In this document: positions 10,414 through 59,955 of the stretch, in pieces
How positions within the stretch are numbered: position 1 is the stretch's first letter
Layout of the letters: each line of letters begins with the position of its first letter
Assembly: GCF_900105065.1 (NCBI RefSeq)
Contig: NZ_LT629749.1
Location: 434,001-498,000, forward strand
Direction of reading: 5' to 3'
Length of the DNA: 64,000 bases
From: Friedmanniella luteola
GTDB lineage: Bacteria > Actinomycetota > Actinomycetes > Propionibacteriales > Propionibacteriaceae
Program-made: the position numbers and the translations under genes
The notes under the pieces: generated by a model
Database searches by the model: none
Told to the model about the DNA's origin: nothing
Seen by the model: the letters and a program-made list of their open reading frames with translations, nothing else

Positions 10414-10644
10414 ATGACGAACGAGTCCCAGCCCGGGGGAGTCACCCCGATCGGAGGCGACCTCACGGGGGTGCGCTTCCTCACCGTGGCCGAGGTCGCG
10501 GCCCTGATGCGCGTGTCCAAGATGTCGGTGTACCGGCTCATCCACAACGGCGACCTCGAGGCCGTCCGCTTCGGTCGCAGCTTCCGGGTCCCCGAGAAGG
10601 CCGTGCACGCCTACCTCCGCGACGCCTTCTTCGAGACCGGCTAG
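10414..10644 (+). CDS. bldC: BldC-like MerR-type helix-turn-helix DNA-binding protein
   Basis: 76-residue protein with a single excisionase/MerR-type winged helix: FLTVAEVAALMRVSKMSVYRL then the wing EAVRFGRSFRVPEKAV. This matches the very conserved actinobacterial BldC family (developmental regulator in Streptomyces; Rv0500A-like in mycobacteria). Its place after proC supports the call. In the usual order bS22 follows almost at once; here about 4.3 kb of other DNA intervenes. Whether it has a developmental role in this organism cannot be told. Confidence 0.88.
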   Translation: MTNESQPGGVTPIGGDLTGVRFLTVAEVAALMRVSKMSVYRLIHNGDLEAVRFGRSFRVPEKAVHAYLRDAFFETG

Positions 10645-10649
10645 GAGTC

Positions 10650-10689
10650 GTGAGGAGTGCGGGGTCGTCGTCGAACCCGGACTCACCAC
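10650..10689. repeat. Imperfect 40-bp palindrome at the 3' end of the AbiEi/DUF559-like pseudogene
   Basis: Two 18-base arms around a 4-base loop, with 14 of 18 positions pairing. Aligned without gaps, it matches the perfect 40-bp palindrome at 11713-11752 at 31 of 40 positions, including the start GTG, the core CGGGGTCG and the end TCACCAC. It lies six bases after the bldC stop and contains the stop codon of the pseudogene. The two copies bracket that gene, so together they look like the ends of one cassette; it may also serve as a terminator. Confidence 0.6.
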
Positions 10690-11637
10690 ACCACCCGGCG
10701 GCACCGCCGGCAGCGCTGCACCACCTCGGTCCAGCCCCGGGCCGTGATGACCGTGCCGACCTGCTGCGCGATGTCGCAGGGGAGATCACTCACGTCGTGC
10801 CAGCCGTAGCGCAGCGTGACCAGCGAGCGCACCGCGAAGTCGTCGTCCCGGCGGAAGTCCCTGAACCGCCCGCCGTCGTCAGCGTGGCCCAGCCGTCCGT
10901 CGAGTTCGACGAGGACCCCGTAGGCGTCGTAGCCGACGTCGCTGCGGTGACGAAGCCCGCCCCGGTACTGGTTGCGCCGGCCCTTCGGGAGGCCGTGGGC
11001 CCGCTCGACGTCGCGCAGGTGGGCCAGTTCCAGCGGTGACTCGAGGCCCTCGGCGACGTCCTGCAGCAGGTCCGTGAGGCGTTGACGGCAGGAGGGGAGC
11101 TTGCAACGGTCCAGAGCGCCGAGGAGCTCCTCGGGTCGCGCCACCCGCAGTCGAGCAGCCCGGGTCACGAGTCGACGACCTCGCCCGGTCGTCGGACGGC
11201 GCACAGGTCCAGCAGGGTGTCGACCGCGGGTAGCCGGGGTGGTGCCCCGACGAGCGTCCGGAGCGGACACCCGGCCGCTCACGATGGAAGGTGCAGGGAC
11301 TGCTGGTCGTCGGTCGGCCCGAGATCGGGCCGAGGACGTCCACGAGCTCGGGCGCCTCGGGCCGCACCCCCCAGAGGTGCCCCGAGGCCTCCGGCCCGAG
11401 CCGAGCACGGTCTCCGGCGGCGAGCACGCCCGCCCACGCCCAGGCGCGCCACGGCGGTGCGGCGGGACCCACGAGGAGGAGACCGCGCCCGAGCCGCTGC
11501 CAGGTCCCCTGGGCGCAGAGCCGCTTGACCACGGTCGGGGTGACCCCCAGGGCGGTCGCCTGCTCGAGGGTGACGACACCCTCCTGGAGGCCGGCGAGCT
11601 GCAGGAGGTCGTCGGAGATCCGCGTCCGTGGGTGCAT
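10683..11637 (-). pseudogene. AbiEi-antitoxin-like / DUF559 domain protein, broken by two frameshifts
   Basis: The 5' part (11637 to about 11250) encodes the winged-helix AbiEi-type N-terminus (LLQLAGLQEGVVTLEQATALG and GTWQRLGRGLLLVG) up to FHRERPGVRSG. The frame must then shift near 11244-11250 to give APPRLPAVDTLLDLCAVRR, and again near 11169-11173 to give LVTRAARLRVARPEELL. The last frame runs to the stop with a Vsr/DUF559-like core (YDAYGVLVELDGRLGH, FRDFRRDDDFA, LTLRYGWHDV). No single frame spans the protein. Intact relatives are about 300 residues, solitary and common in actinobacteria. It is bracketed by related palindromes at 10650-10689 and 11713-11752. Sequencing error is possible but would have to occur twice. 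Confidence 0.75.
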
Positions 11638-11712
11638 GCCGGCACTCCCAGGATGTGCGGCACCTACCGAACACCGCCGTGGCTCCCTGGGGACGCGACT
11701 GCTCGGGTTCCT

Positions 11713-11752
11713 GTGGTGACTTCGGGGTCGTGCTCGACCCCGAAGTCACCAC
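11713..11752. terminator. Perfect 18-bp stem hairpin (40-bp palindrome), terminator-like
   Basis: Arms 11713-11730 and 11735-11752 are perfectly complementary around a TGCT loop. The hairpin begins five bases beyond the lacZ stop codon on the lacZ strand, so it can end that transcript, although no U-tract follows. It is also the upstream flank of the AbiEi/DUF559-like pseudogene and is related (31/40) to the palindrome on the other side of that gene, suggesting it is a cassette end as well as a terminator. Confidence 0.7.
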
Positions 11753-11756
11753 GCCG

Positions 11757-14700
11757 TCAGGCGGGGTCCTCGAAGACCAGCGTGAGCTGGTGCGCGCCGG
11801 GCCACAGGGCGTGCTCGGGGAGCACGTCGGGGCCGCAGGCCCGGCTGCCGACGCCGTGCACGGCAGCGTCGAGGAACAGGTACGTCCGGTCGCTCGACGG
11901 CAGCTCGTAGGGGTGGCGGGCCCGGTCGACCTGCTGGGGCGTGTGCCGGCTCAGCGTGAAGCCGGGCCGCCGACCGGCGGTGTCGGGTGCGGTCCGGAGC
12001 CGCAGGACGGCGCCGTCGGACCCGCGCAGCTCGAGGCGCCGCAGCCCGGACCGGTGGCCCGTCTCCTGCGGCCGCGAGTAGGGCACGGACAGCTCGTCGA
12101 GGCCGGCCGAGAACCGGCCGGTGCGGGCGGCGGCGAGGCTGTCGGGGTACGACTCGGCCGGACCGGTGCCGAACCAGTCCGCCCGCTCGACGCCGGCCGG
12201 CAGGTCGAACCGGACGCCGACGCGCGGCCAGGTGCAGTCCCAGCCGACGGAGGGGACGACGTCGACGAAGCAGCCGAGACCGCCGTCGACCAGCTCCCAC
12301 CGCGTCCGCACCTCGACGGACAGCCCGCTGTTCGCGGTGCCGACGCGGACGGCGCTGACCACCGCGTCGGGACCGGCGCGGAGCTCGAGCAGCCGGTGCA
12401 CCAGCCGGTCGAGACCCCGGGCCCGCCAGCGCTGCTCCGAGGACGGCCCCGGCTCGCCGGTGCCGTACGGGGTGTCCTCGGGCCGGGCGGTCTCGTAGGA
12501 ACCGAAGCTGGCGCCGCGGTCGTTGTCGGTCGGCGCCCGCCACAGCTCCAGCCGCGGGCCGTCCAGGGCCAGCCCGTGCAGCCCCGTGAGCCGGCCGGTC
12601 CGCGCGTCGAACGTGGCGGGACCCAGCGTCAGCGGGTCGCCCGCGGTGACCAGCGGCGGCGCGGCGGCCGGCCGCGGCAGGACGGCGGCGGCGGGGGTCT
12701 GCACGGGCCGGGCCGCCTGCGCCCGGCCGAGGACGTGGCCCGCCGGCGCCCACGGCTGGTCGGCGGCCAGCTCGACCCGGACGTCCCACCAGCCGCCGTC
12801 GGCGCCCTCGACCAGCGCGTCGGGCAGCAGGACGGTGGCCGAGGCCCCGGGCGCCAGCACCGGCACGTCCAGCTCGGTCTCCGCGCTCAGCGTGCCGTCG
12901 GTCCCGGAGACGACCGCGGCCACCAGGCGCAGGTGCGCGGTGTCGGCGGTGTGGTAGCGGTTGCGGACCTCCAGCGCCCGGCCGGCGAGCGTCAGCACGA
13001 CGGGCGTGTGCACGGCCGCGAACTCGGCGACCGACGGCGTCGGGGTGTCGTCGGGCAGCAGCATGCCGTCCATCACGAAGTTGCCGTCGTGCACGACCTC
13101 CCCGAAGTCGCCCCCGTACCCGTGGAAGGGGGTGCCGTCGGCCGCGCGGGTCGCCAGGCCGTGGTCGCGCCACTCCCAGACGAAGCCGCCGTGCAGCCGC
13201 GGGTAGCGCTCGGTCAGCGTGTCGTAGTCGGCGATGGCGCCCGGGCCGTTGCCCATCGCGTGCACGTACTCGCACATCAGGAAGGGCATCGAGCGCACCC
13301 GCGCGCCCTCGGCGGGACCCGTGTGCCGGACGGGTCCGACACCGCTGCCGATCGCCTCCACCTCGACGAGCGCCGGGTACATCCGCGAGTACACGTCGGT
13401 GTACTGGCCGGTGTAGTCGCCCTCGTAGTGCACGGGGCGGCCGGGGTCGCGGCGGTGCACCCACTGCGCCATGGCGGCCAGGTTGCGGCCGGTGCCCGCC
13501 TCGTTGCCCAGCGACCACAGGACGACGCAGGGGTGGTTCTTGTCGCGCTCGACGGTCCGCTCGATCCGGTCCAGGTAGGACGCGGTCCAGCGCGGGTCGT
13601 CGCTCGGGTTGTCCTGCCAGCCCTGGAACTCGAAGCCGTGGGTCTCCAGGTCGCACTCGTCGACGACCCAGAAGCCCAGCTCGTCGGCCAGGTCGAGGAC
13701 GCGCGGGTGCGGCGGGTAGTGGCTGGTCCGGATCGCGTTGACGTTGGCCCGCTTCATGGTGACCATGTCGGCGCGGGCGTGGGCCTCGTCGAAGACGCGG
13801 CCGCGGACGGGGTGGGTCTCGTGCCGGTTGACCCCGCGGAACGTCACCGGCTCCCCGTTGACCAGGAAGCGGTCACCGACGACGCGGACCTCGCGGAAGC
13901 CGACCCGGACGGTGACGGTCTCCCCGGTCGAGGCGACCTCGACGGTGTAGAGCCGCGGCGTCTCCGCCGTCCAGGGCTCCACCTCGCCCACGGCCACCTC
14001 CGCCAGGGCGGCGGCGTCGGGGAAGGTCTGCTCGACGCCCAGCTCCGGCACCCGGACCGTGACCGGGTAGGCGGTCGGCGCCGCCTGCAGCACCGGCCGC
14101 AGCGTGCCGCGGAACCCCACGCCCTCGTCGTCGGCGACCAGCCCGGGCTGCAGCCAGACGTCGTCCAGCGCGCCGGCGGGCCGCCCCAGCAGGGTGACGC
14201 TGCGGAAGATGCCGGGCAGCCACCACTGGTCCTGGTCCTCCAGGTAGCTGGCCGAGGACCACTGGGAGACGCGCACGACGAGCTCGTTCTCGCCGAGGCG
14301 CAGGGCCGCGGTGACGTCGAACTCCTGGACGAGCCGGCTGCCCTTGCCCACGCCCACCTCGGCGCCGTTCAGCCACACCTGGTAGACGGACTCGACGCCG
14401 TCGAAGCGGAGCAGCACCCGCTCGACGTCCCACCCCGGGTGGTCGAAGGTGCGGCGGTGGTCGGCGGTCGGGTTCTCGTCGGGCACGAAGGGCGGGTCCA
14501 CGGGGAACGGGTACTGCACGTTGGTGTAGATCGGCCGGCCGCGCTCGGCGCTGGTGGGCACCCCGTCGGGCCCGAGCACCCAGTGCGACGGCACGGTCAC
14601 GGTGCCCCAGTCGCCGTCGCTCGCGGGCGGCTCCGCCAGCCCGCGGTGACTGGCGTGCAGCCGGAACTGCCACTCCCCGTCCAGGCCCAGCGAGGGGGCG

Positions 14701-14774
14701 TCGGTGGGCAGCCACGCGCGGGGCGTGCTGCGGGATCCGGATCCGGTGCTGAAGTCCTCGACATGGTTCGCCAC
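11757..14774 (-). CDS. lacZ: Beta-galactosidase, GH2 family, LacZ type
   Basis: 1005-residue glycoside hydrolase family 2 enzyme that cleaves beta-galactosides such as lactose; the length is close to E. coli LacZ. Domain order is visible: jelly-roll sugar-binding domain (FRLHASHRGLAEPP; FDGVESVYQVWLNG), immunoglobulin-like domain, TIM barrel with acid/base E425 in VVLWSLGNEAG and nucleophile E502 in FLMCEYVHAMGN, then the C-terminal beta-sandwich domains (LWRAPTDNDRG, WFGTGPAESYPD). The GTG at 14774 is chosen: TAGCGT (14788-14783) lies eight bases upstream, and an open frame upstream of it lacks family similarity. There is no signal peptide and no sugar transporter or regulator nearby. It sits in an insertion between the bldC-like gene and bS22. 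Confidence 0.95.
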   Translation of the reverse strand: MANHVEDFSTGSGSRSTPRAWLPTDAPSLGLDGEWQFRLHASHRGLAEPPASDGDWGTVTVPSHWVLGPDGVPTSAERGRPIYTNVQYPFPVDPPFVPDENPTADHRRTFDHPGWDVERVLLRFDGVESVYQVWLNGAEVGVGKGSRLVQEFDVTAALRLGENELVVRVSQWSSASYLEDQDQWWLPGIFRSVTLLGRPAGALDDVWLQPGLVADDEGVGFRGTLRPVLQAAPTAYPVTVRVPELGVEQTFPDAAALAEVAVGEVEPWTAETPRLYTVEVASTGETVTVRVGFREVRVVGDRFLVNGEPVTFRGVNRHETHPVRGRVFDEAHARADMVTMKRANVNAIRTSHYPPHPRVLDLADELGFWVVDECDLETHGFEFQGWQDNPSDDPRWTASYLDRIERTVERDKNHPCVVLWSLGNEAGTGRNLAAMAQWVHRRDPGRPVHYEGDYTGQYTDVYSRMYPALVEVEAIGSGVGPVRHTGPAEGARVRSMPFLMCEYVHAMGNGPGAIADYDTLTERYPRLHGGFVWEWRDHGLATRAADGTPFHGYGGDFGEVVHDGNFVMDGMLLPDDTPTPSVAEFAAVHTPVVLTLAGRALEVRNRYHTADTAHLRLVAAVVSGTDGTLSAETELDVPVLAPGASATVLLPDALVEGADGGWWDVRVELAADQPWAPAGHVLGRAQAARPVQTPAAAVLPRPAAAPPLVTAGDPLTLGPATFDARTGRLTGLHGLALDGPRLELWRAPTDNDRGASFGSYETARPEDTPYGTGEPGPSSEQRWRARGLDRLVHRLLELRAGPDAVVSAVRVGTANSGLSVEVRTRWELVDGGLGCFVDVVPSVGWDCTWPRVGVRFDLPAGVERADWFGTGPAESYPDSLAAARTGRFSAGLDELSVPYSRPQETGHRSGLRRLELRGSDGAVLRLRTAPDTAGRRPGFTLSRHTPQQVDRARHPYELPSSDRTYLFLDAAVHGVGSRACGPDVLPEHALWPGAHQLTLVFEDPA

Positions 14775-14826
14775 GCTCGCCGACGCTACCGTCCGCGCCC
14801 GGTGCGGGGGTGGCCACGGTCGCCGG

Positions 14827-14857
14827 TTGGCGCCGGGTCGGGCGCGCCGGGTAGTCT
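14827..14857 (+). promoter_or_regulatory. Promoter of the bS22 gene
   Basis: TTGGCG (14827-14832), a 19-base spacer and TAGTCT (14852-14857) would start a leader of about 75 bases before the bS22 ATG. The leader ends with a GAGAGG ribosome site at 14926-14931. The same 160-base interval also carries the divergent lacZ promoter. Confidence 0.5.
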
Positions 14858-14937
14858 GCCAGGGTTGTCCGGCGGTCGACCGGACGTGTTCGTAGCAGCC
14901 CGAGGCCGACGGCGTCTCGGTAGTCGAGAGGTTGTTC

Positions 14938-15039
14938 ATGGGTTCGGTCATCAAGAAGCGCCGCAAGCGGATGGCGAAGAAGAAGCACCGCAAGCTGCTC
15001 AAGCGCACCCGCATCCAGCGCCGCCGCGCCGGCAAGTAG
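14938..15039 (+). CDS. Small ribosomal protein bS22 (AURKAIP1/COX24 domain), 33 residues
   Basis: A 33-residue, almost wholly Lys/Arg protein: [17 protein letters not shown] followed by [16 protein letters not shown]. This is the near-invariant actinobacterial extra ribosomal protein bS22 (Rv0500B in M. tuberculosis), which binds near the decoding centre of the small subunit. ATG at 14938 with GAGAGG upstream. It is normally next to the bldC-like gene and followed by a galE2-type epimerase; here it is separated from the former and followed only by a stub of the latter. Confidence 0.95.
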
Positions 15040-59919: not shown

Positions 59920-59955
59920 GCTGCGCCGTGCCGTGCAGTCACGGCACGGCGCAGC
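59920..59955. terminator. Perfect 16-bp stem bidirectional terminator
   Basis: Arms 59920-59935 and 59940-59955 pair perfectly around a CAGT loop, five bases after the Gfo/Idh stop and 12 bases from the end of the converging nucleotidyltransferase gene. Suitable to stop transcription from both sides. Confidence 0.8.

Follow-up and report, generated by a model that had tools for sequence, protein, structure and literature searches.

Predicted actinobacterial nucleases encoded by genes often bracketed by their own matched palindromes

A family of predicted DNA-cutting proteins is widespread in actinobacteria, and its genes often lie between two matching hairpin-forming sequences of their own. 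The bracket pattern is very secure as a property of the family. As its best explanation we favor, with modest confidence, a partnership between gene and palindrome resembling that of REPtrons, in which a nuclease of restriction-endonuclease-like fold takes the place of the HUH transposase. The analysis began from a decayed member of the family in the window, the 64,000-nucleotide stretch of DNA studied here, and extends to its genus and phylum.

Results

A decayed gene between two related palindromes

Two 40-nt palindromes flank a decayed AbiEi/DUF559-type gene in the window (Table 1). They are identical at 31 of 40 positions, and recomputing the stems upheld the preliminary description of one as perfect and the other as imperfect. 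The right palindrome has an 18-bp perfect stem and a 4-nt loop, is self-complementary at 38 of 40 positions, folds as DNA at -23.9 kcal/mol (z -9.5) and tops all 40-mers of the 64-kb window in self-complementarity. The left one is self-complementary at 30 of 40 positions (z -3.8). Their outer ends lie at the stop codons of the neighboring genes, as had been noted: the left palindrome begins 5 nt past the bldC stop (10644), and the right palindrome reaches to within 4 nt of the lacZ stop (11757). The stop codon of the decayed gene's C-terminal frame (10683-10685) falls inside the left palindrome, and no T-run follows either one.

Table 1. Features at the bldC/lacZ slot, in window positions. Palindrome model R1 was built from six copies of the window's genome (G000) that include both palindromes listed here, so their bit scores are in part scores against themselves.
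Feature	Position	Strand	Support
bldC-like HTH_17 gene, left slot border	10414..10644	+	sequence
Left palindrome, gene's downstream side, imperfect	10650..10689		60.5 bits to palindrome model R1
Decayed gene ORF with C-terminal DUF559/Vsr-like nuclease core, other frame	10683..11663	-	50% to intact paralogue; 72% to G002 orthologue over 162 residues
Decayed gene N-terminal part, AbiEi_4 winged helix, frame 1	10879..11637	-	PF13338, E 7.8e-8; 72% to intact G002 orthologue over 134 residues
Right palindrome, gene's upstream side, 18-bp stem	11713..11752		68.3 bits to palindrome model R1
lacZ (glycoside hydrolase family 2), right slot border	11757..15035	-	sequence

The gene is decayed, as had been proposed; it is frameshifted, with the AbiEi_4 domain (E 8e-8) and the nuclease-like C-terminal core in different frames and the frame change near 11200-11240. 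The sister genome G002 carries an intact orthologue at the same bldC/lacZ site, bracketed by the same palindrome type. The left and right repeats of the window score 39 against each other, just below our survey threshold of 40, and the intact G002 pair scores 52. No AbiEii partner lies beside the gene in the window, where its neighbors are bldC and lacZ, and on the absence of a partner at this locus we rejected a toxin-antitoxin gene as a candidate.

The gene is a rare occupant of this site. bldC is present in all 20 genus genomes, and a family gene sits beside it in G000 and G002 only. Without the gene, the end of lacZ lies 9-136 nt after bldC in seven of the 18 other genomes with bldC (G007, G009, G013, G014, G015, G016 and G018), and in G001 and G017 it lies 504-1265 nt away. 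Because lacZ ends near bldC in these seven gene-free genomes and a bS22 motif occurs within 1.5 kb of bldC at one of the 20 genus loci, lacZ is a normal neighbor of bldC in the genus, where the usual adjacency of bldC and bS22 stated earlier is not seen.

Matched palindromes bracket genes throughout the family

Searching the genus with an intact paralogue as query gave matches in 16 of 20 genomes, 39 rows that make up 37 genes once split ones are merged; we analyzed 36, leaving out one remnant (G000 3078762). A matched bracket was defined as a repeat score of at least 40 between the upstream and downstream sequence of the same gene. Most genus genes have a repeat pair of about 25-60 nt that is mostly palindromic and whose sequence is its own: a score of at least 40 within the locus was found at 26 of 36 loci, compared with 5 of 1260 cross-locus pairs, one of which joins the window gene and its G002 orthologue. 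Most palindromes are private to their own gene.

We added 80 further named loci, from which two with short upstream sequence were dropped and 10 duplicates removed, for a total of 104 distinct genes including that of the window. Brackets scoring at least 40 were found at 61 of the 104 genes and in 3 of 612 shifted control intervals; at a score of at least 50 the counts were 47 of 104 and 0 of 612. Genes below the bracket threshold make up 43 of the 104, and 24 of the 40 in the phylum sample described below. Each repeat forms a palindrome by itself in 51 of 62 cases compared to 4 of 62 after shuffling (duplicates still included), and in 52 of 62 repeat pairs the start of the downstream copy falls in the interval from 30 nt ahead of the stop codon's end to 19 nt past it.

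Across the phylum, 85 of 296 genomes were positive for the family. We hand-picked 40 genes from the listed matches, one per genome, and found 16 bracketed compared with 1 of 1560 cross-locus pairs, the control used here since these loci were too short for shifted intervals. Palindrome likeness tracks protein similarity weakly, with clear sharing in three of nine pairs of at least 70% protein identity, a link too weak for the strict protein-palindrome code that we had considered. The centre GTAGTC/GACTAC recurs in 9 of 51 palindromes, several of them unrelated, and recalls the GTAG motif of REP sequences but lies in the loop.

A predicted nuclease present as distinct single copies

Among 55 family members compared to Pfam (E <= 0.01), AbiEi_4 was found in 42 and DUF559 (PF04480) in 24, with a best E-value of 4e-6; none of the five Pfam families matched by these members is an HUH transposase family. 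In an alignment of the 55, residues E237, D239, D252, D256 and R268 and two cysteines are invariant, and H244 and a third cysteine are conserved in more than 90%. In a confident AlphaFold2 model (pLDDT 93.4, pTM 0.88), we read the layout of strands and helices surrounding the ELD motif as consistent with a restriction-endonuclease-like core. We infer that the family protein is a nuclease. The earlier likening of the locus to REP-associated genes, with a restriction-endonuclease-like core, was apt, and hairpin bracketing is a trait of the family. A profile search of solved structures returned two weak N-terminal matches, to AbiGI and to an abortive phage infection protein, and the PADLOC AbiEi models match three proteins.

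In the 10 genus genomes with at least two analyzed genes, the copies are all different, with top within-genome protein identities of 50-62% in a comparison that excluded the decayed window gene. A tblastn search with one member gave no match in 72,556 plasmid records. These two results led us to reject an autonomous transposon, and on the same grounds the preliminary idea of a one-gene cassette that moves freely is not supported. We also rejected a phage origin: three proteins matched no PHROG family, and a search of 50,697 phage records gave one partial match.

A DnaA-box-like motif upstream of the gene

Upstream of the start codon, most genes carry the motif TTRTCCACA, mostly followed by G. 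We matched the upstream 9-mer to the DnaA box TTATCCACA or TTGTCCACA and found it exact in 46 of the 104 genes, with one mismatch in 40, two in 13 and three in 5. At most one mismatch is thus seen in 86 of 104 genes versus 56 of 2226 control windows (1 exact, 55 with one mismatch). The motif lies on the sense strand in 76 of the 93 best matches with at most one mismatch (duplicates still included). The window copy has no box (three mismatches) and its G002 orthologue has two mismatches. In the phylum sample, 9 of 40 genes have at most one mismatch, compared to 11 of 357 control windows; these are 5 of the 6 genes from the same class or order and 4 of the 34 from other classes, so that the box fades outside the class.

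Both TTATCCACA and TTGTCCACA appear among the high-affinity DnaA boxes listed in PMC4285127, where TTGTCCACA is given for Mycobacterium and Streptomyces. The exact box is absent from 263 kb of G000 sequence, window included, and we found no DnaA boxes at the contig ends (possible origins) of three genomes. Going by its sequence, the upstream motif may be bound by DnaA, and DnaA-timed expression of the gene is a testable lead; an alternative reader could be the family protein's own winged helix.

Solo palindromes lie mostly after stop codons and mainly in genomes with the matching gene

Palindromes of the bracketing types also occur as solo copies away from the gene. The window type, R1, has seven positions in G000 and seven in G002, two of them bracketing the gene in each genome, with one weak position in each of three of the 18 other genomes and none in 15, as found with a model built from G000 copies that favors G000 and its sister. 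A second family, that of gene L051, has 13 positions in the gene's own genome, G012, of which 2 bracket the gene and 11 are solo; G011 has 5 positions, and G019 has 11 weaker ones. Both of the latter genomes carry genes with related palindromes, and the other 17 genomes have zero to three matches, several of them brackets of other genes. These counts come from up to 150 scored candidates per genome, a set that may miss weak copies. In the two families tested, solo copies concentrate mainly in genomes with the matching gene.

We characterized 25 of the 39 solo positions in G000, G002, G012 and G011, drawn from three families; they include orthologous slots or duplication and are not all independent. 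Of the 25, 23 lie within 30 nt of the stop of an open run of at least 100 codons on at least one side (13% at random), and 11 lie near stops on both sides (0.7% at random). Family-protein similarity within 1.5 kb, as a gene remnant would give, was found at none of the 25, and an exact DnaA box within 250 nt at none. Solo numbers are low, at 5-11 per family and genome. The preliminary description had counted palindrome copies without such genes against its proposal. Such copies do exist, five G000 solos having no family-protein similarity within 1.5 kb, but a partnership of the REP/RAYT type predicts the same.

A third family, Q, is present in G000 and G002, and in neither does it bracket a gene, so a resident gene is no requirement for solos. 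We read Q as an orphan family. Two of its six positions in G000 (14710 and 4715981) belong to a 99% duplication. The duplicated stretch (L272/L274) covers at least 3 kb, its copies separated by some 16 kb when counted across the contig ends, and may be real or an assembly artefact.

Several further observations concern individual palindromes. The solo at G000 3333667 has a candidate extended match to the gene's 3' end. Beside it lies a short gene (L007:3741-4241) that is missing at the orthologous G002 site, with similar DNA elsewhere in G002. At 59920-59955 of the window, a further strong GC-rich palindrome with the centre GCAGTC lies between two open runs that converge on it, with stops 4 and 12 nt away, and looks like a solo of another family. 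Another dispersed palindrome, of the CCTGAGCCTGTCGAAGG.. type, occurs at L284 and at the G002 loci L121, L122, L124, L127, L129, L293 and L294; its core has 11 matches in 179 kb of G002 sequence and 2 in 263 kb of G000 sequence.

Palindromes and genes turn over at fixed slots

Nine solo slots are comparable between the collinear sisters G000 and G002, the other solos being unmapped or ambiguous; G000 4448575 (no clean palindrome) and G002 1419347 (about 1.2 kb of other DNA on the G000 side) were left out of the count. Four of the nine slots are swapped, with R1 in one sister and Q in the other (G000 3359856, 3333667, 1342468 and 4421042), and at G000 4421042 Q-like outer arms surround an R1-like core. 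Three slots hold the same family in both sisters, two of them degenerate in one genome, and two hold a palindrome in G002 only. Because the direction of the swap differs between sites, palindrome replacement appears to have continued after G000 and G002 split.

Genes also change at fixed positions. One slot holds a gene in G003 and a different gene (54% identity) in the opposite orientation in G011; in G012 the same slot has a solo resembling that genome's own L051 family, and in G004 another palindrome with about 6 kb of other DNA. Inverted genes at the same slot were found in the pairs L049/L060, L160/L172, L172/L184 and L157/L204, which represent three slots. In pairs that share a slot on both sides, identity is 70-95% for the flanking DNA and 45-97% for the cassette proteins; for L039/L040 the proteins are 61% and the flanks 89% identical, although values for DNA and for protein can be compared only loosely. 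A remnant of a third family gene in G000 (G000:C1:3078762; L126:10763-10975) lies at the slot of the intact G002 gene L055, and a palindrome with different outer arms is found near it.

A comparison of empty sites, as had been proposed for sister strains, gave two cases without such a palindrome. The G002 gene L066 faces 81 bp in G000 that contain no palindrome scoring at least 12, only a short stretch like the palindrome's outer end. At the bldC/lacZ slot, the seven gene-free genomes, from more distant species, have no such palindrome, with shorter unrelated hairpins in G015 (score 10) and G007 (score 9). Both sites favor palindromes that travel with the gene, between species distant enough for decay to be an alternative.

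Discussion

Alternative explanations

The strongest competitor, which we think improbable though worth keeping in view, is that the palindromes are made in some other way, or are old terminator-like repeats, and that the gene inserts into them and duplicates its target, so that its flanks match the resident palindrome. Flanks that agree within a locus yet differ between close proteins, a gene at a slot where a sister species has a solo palindrome and the existence of a gene-less orphan family (Q) would all fit. Target duplication does not, however, predict an empty site without a palindrome, as seen in the 81 bp of G000 opposite L066 and in the seven gene-free bldC/lacZ slots, and solo swaps that involve no gene would need an extra explanation.

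Less likely still, solos could be scars like solo LTRs, left when a cassette that moves with its palindromes loses the gene by recombination. Solos do co-occur with the cognate gene, cassettes are missing from sister sites, and the two repeats match in both direct and inverted orientation. A gene remnant, though, was found near none of the 25 solos, and the lack of near-identical cassettes within the 10 genomes gives no sign of ongoing cassette transposition.

We consider it very unlikely that the palindromes are bidirectional terminators of convergent genes, made similar by local gene conversion around a solitary AbiEi/DUF559 gene with an ordinary role in defence or repair. Such terminators would account for strong hairpins and for solos and brackets directly after stops, often between convergent open frames, but not for the missing T-run in the window, for families common to unrelated sites genome-wide and concentrated where the cognate gene is present, or for matched flanks being so rare in shifted intervals. 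Chance or composition can be set aside: GC-rich DNA yields many short hairpins and the window pair alone is borderline, but the shifted-interval and cross-locus controls refute this for the family.

A model of the gene-palindrome partnership

For the partnership that we favor, a mechanism acting in trans on the palindromes is moderately likely. The protein would recognize its own palindrome as a duplex, a cruciform or a single-stranded hairpin at the replication fork and cut at or near intergenic slots. Repair templated by another palindrome would then spread that palindrome and overwrite older ones, and recombination between the bracketing copies could invert the gene or drop it out. The gene itself would be kept as one distinct copy per type, like tnpAREP, and not multiply as a transposon. 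In the class Actinomycetes, the upstream DnaA box suggests that expression is tied to DnaA and, through it, to replication, the time at which repair could draw on a sister copy. Since the window gene is decayed, its own palindromes are probably no longer moved by it. As a more tentative extension, which we would not yet lean on, the whole may be a phylum-wide selfish system in which the nuclease cuts rival palindromes at slots and repair installs its own type, timed by DnaA in the class Actinomycetes, with palindromes competing for slots.

If true, the partnership would be an actinobacterial counterpart of REP/RAYT with an unrelated enzyme. It would help to account for the abundance of solitary AbiEi/DUF559 genes, present in 85 of the 296 phylum genomes searched, and would offer a source for the palindromes seen after stop codons. 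The upstream DnaA box would provide a directly testable link from a mobile-element-like gene to replication control.

Comparison with known systems

We compared the system to known kinds of element. It shares with AbiE type IV toxin-antitoxin systems an N-terminal winged helix related to AbiEi, but the window gene has no AbiEii nucleotidyltransferase neighbor and a C-terminal nuclease-like domain instead. To the DUF559/Vsr-like nuclease fold it is linked by PF04480 in 24 of 55 members and by a conserved acidic core. Homing endonuclease genes, Vsr-like types included, are single nuclease genes at fixed sites whose insertion interrupts a conserved target. Our family likewise consists of single nuclease genes at sites fixed in relatives, present or absent at the same slot, but the slots examined are intergenic, after stops, and target-like palindromes are retained on both sides instead of being disrupted. 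As in IS200/IS605 elements, a coding sequence is bordered by hairpins (PMC8266576), but the 55 members have no HUH transposase match and there is no sign of multicopy transposition. A full-text literature search, with most subscription papers and all preprints outside its scope, found no description of the system.

The closest likeness is to REPtrons. As described in PMC8266576 and PMC3116915, a REPtron is a tnpAREP (RAYT) gene bordered by REP palindromes that encodes an HUH nuclease with a catalytic Tyr; REPtrons occur as one distinct copy per type, are not plasmid-borne and have cognate palindromes dispersed extragenically, and in REPs the palindrome is immediately preceded by a conserved tetranucleotide, usually GTAG. 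Here too the gene is bordered by palindromes (61 of 104), each type is one distinct copy (within-genome identities no higher than 62% across 10 genomes, and no match to a single query among 72,556 plasmid records), cognate palindromes are dispersed extragenically (two families; 23 of 25 solos after stops) and the palindrome family changes from gene to gene. In contrast to REPtrons, the enzyme has an AbiEi_4 winged helix and a DUF559-like core in place of HUH/Tyr, no tetranucleotide is conserved (in the R1 family, preceding columns vary among the six copies), copies number about a dozen at most in the families tested versus hundreds of REPs, and a DnaA box lies upstream in the class Actinomycetes. 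The system works like a REPtron yet is not a member, as the HUH enzyme is absent. With each known kind tested failing a defining feature, we regard this pairing of gene and palindrome as new.
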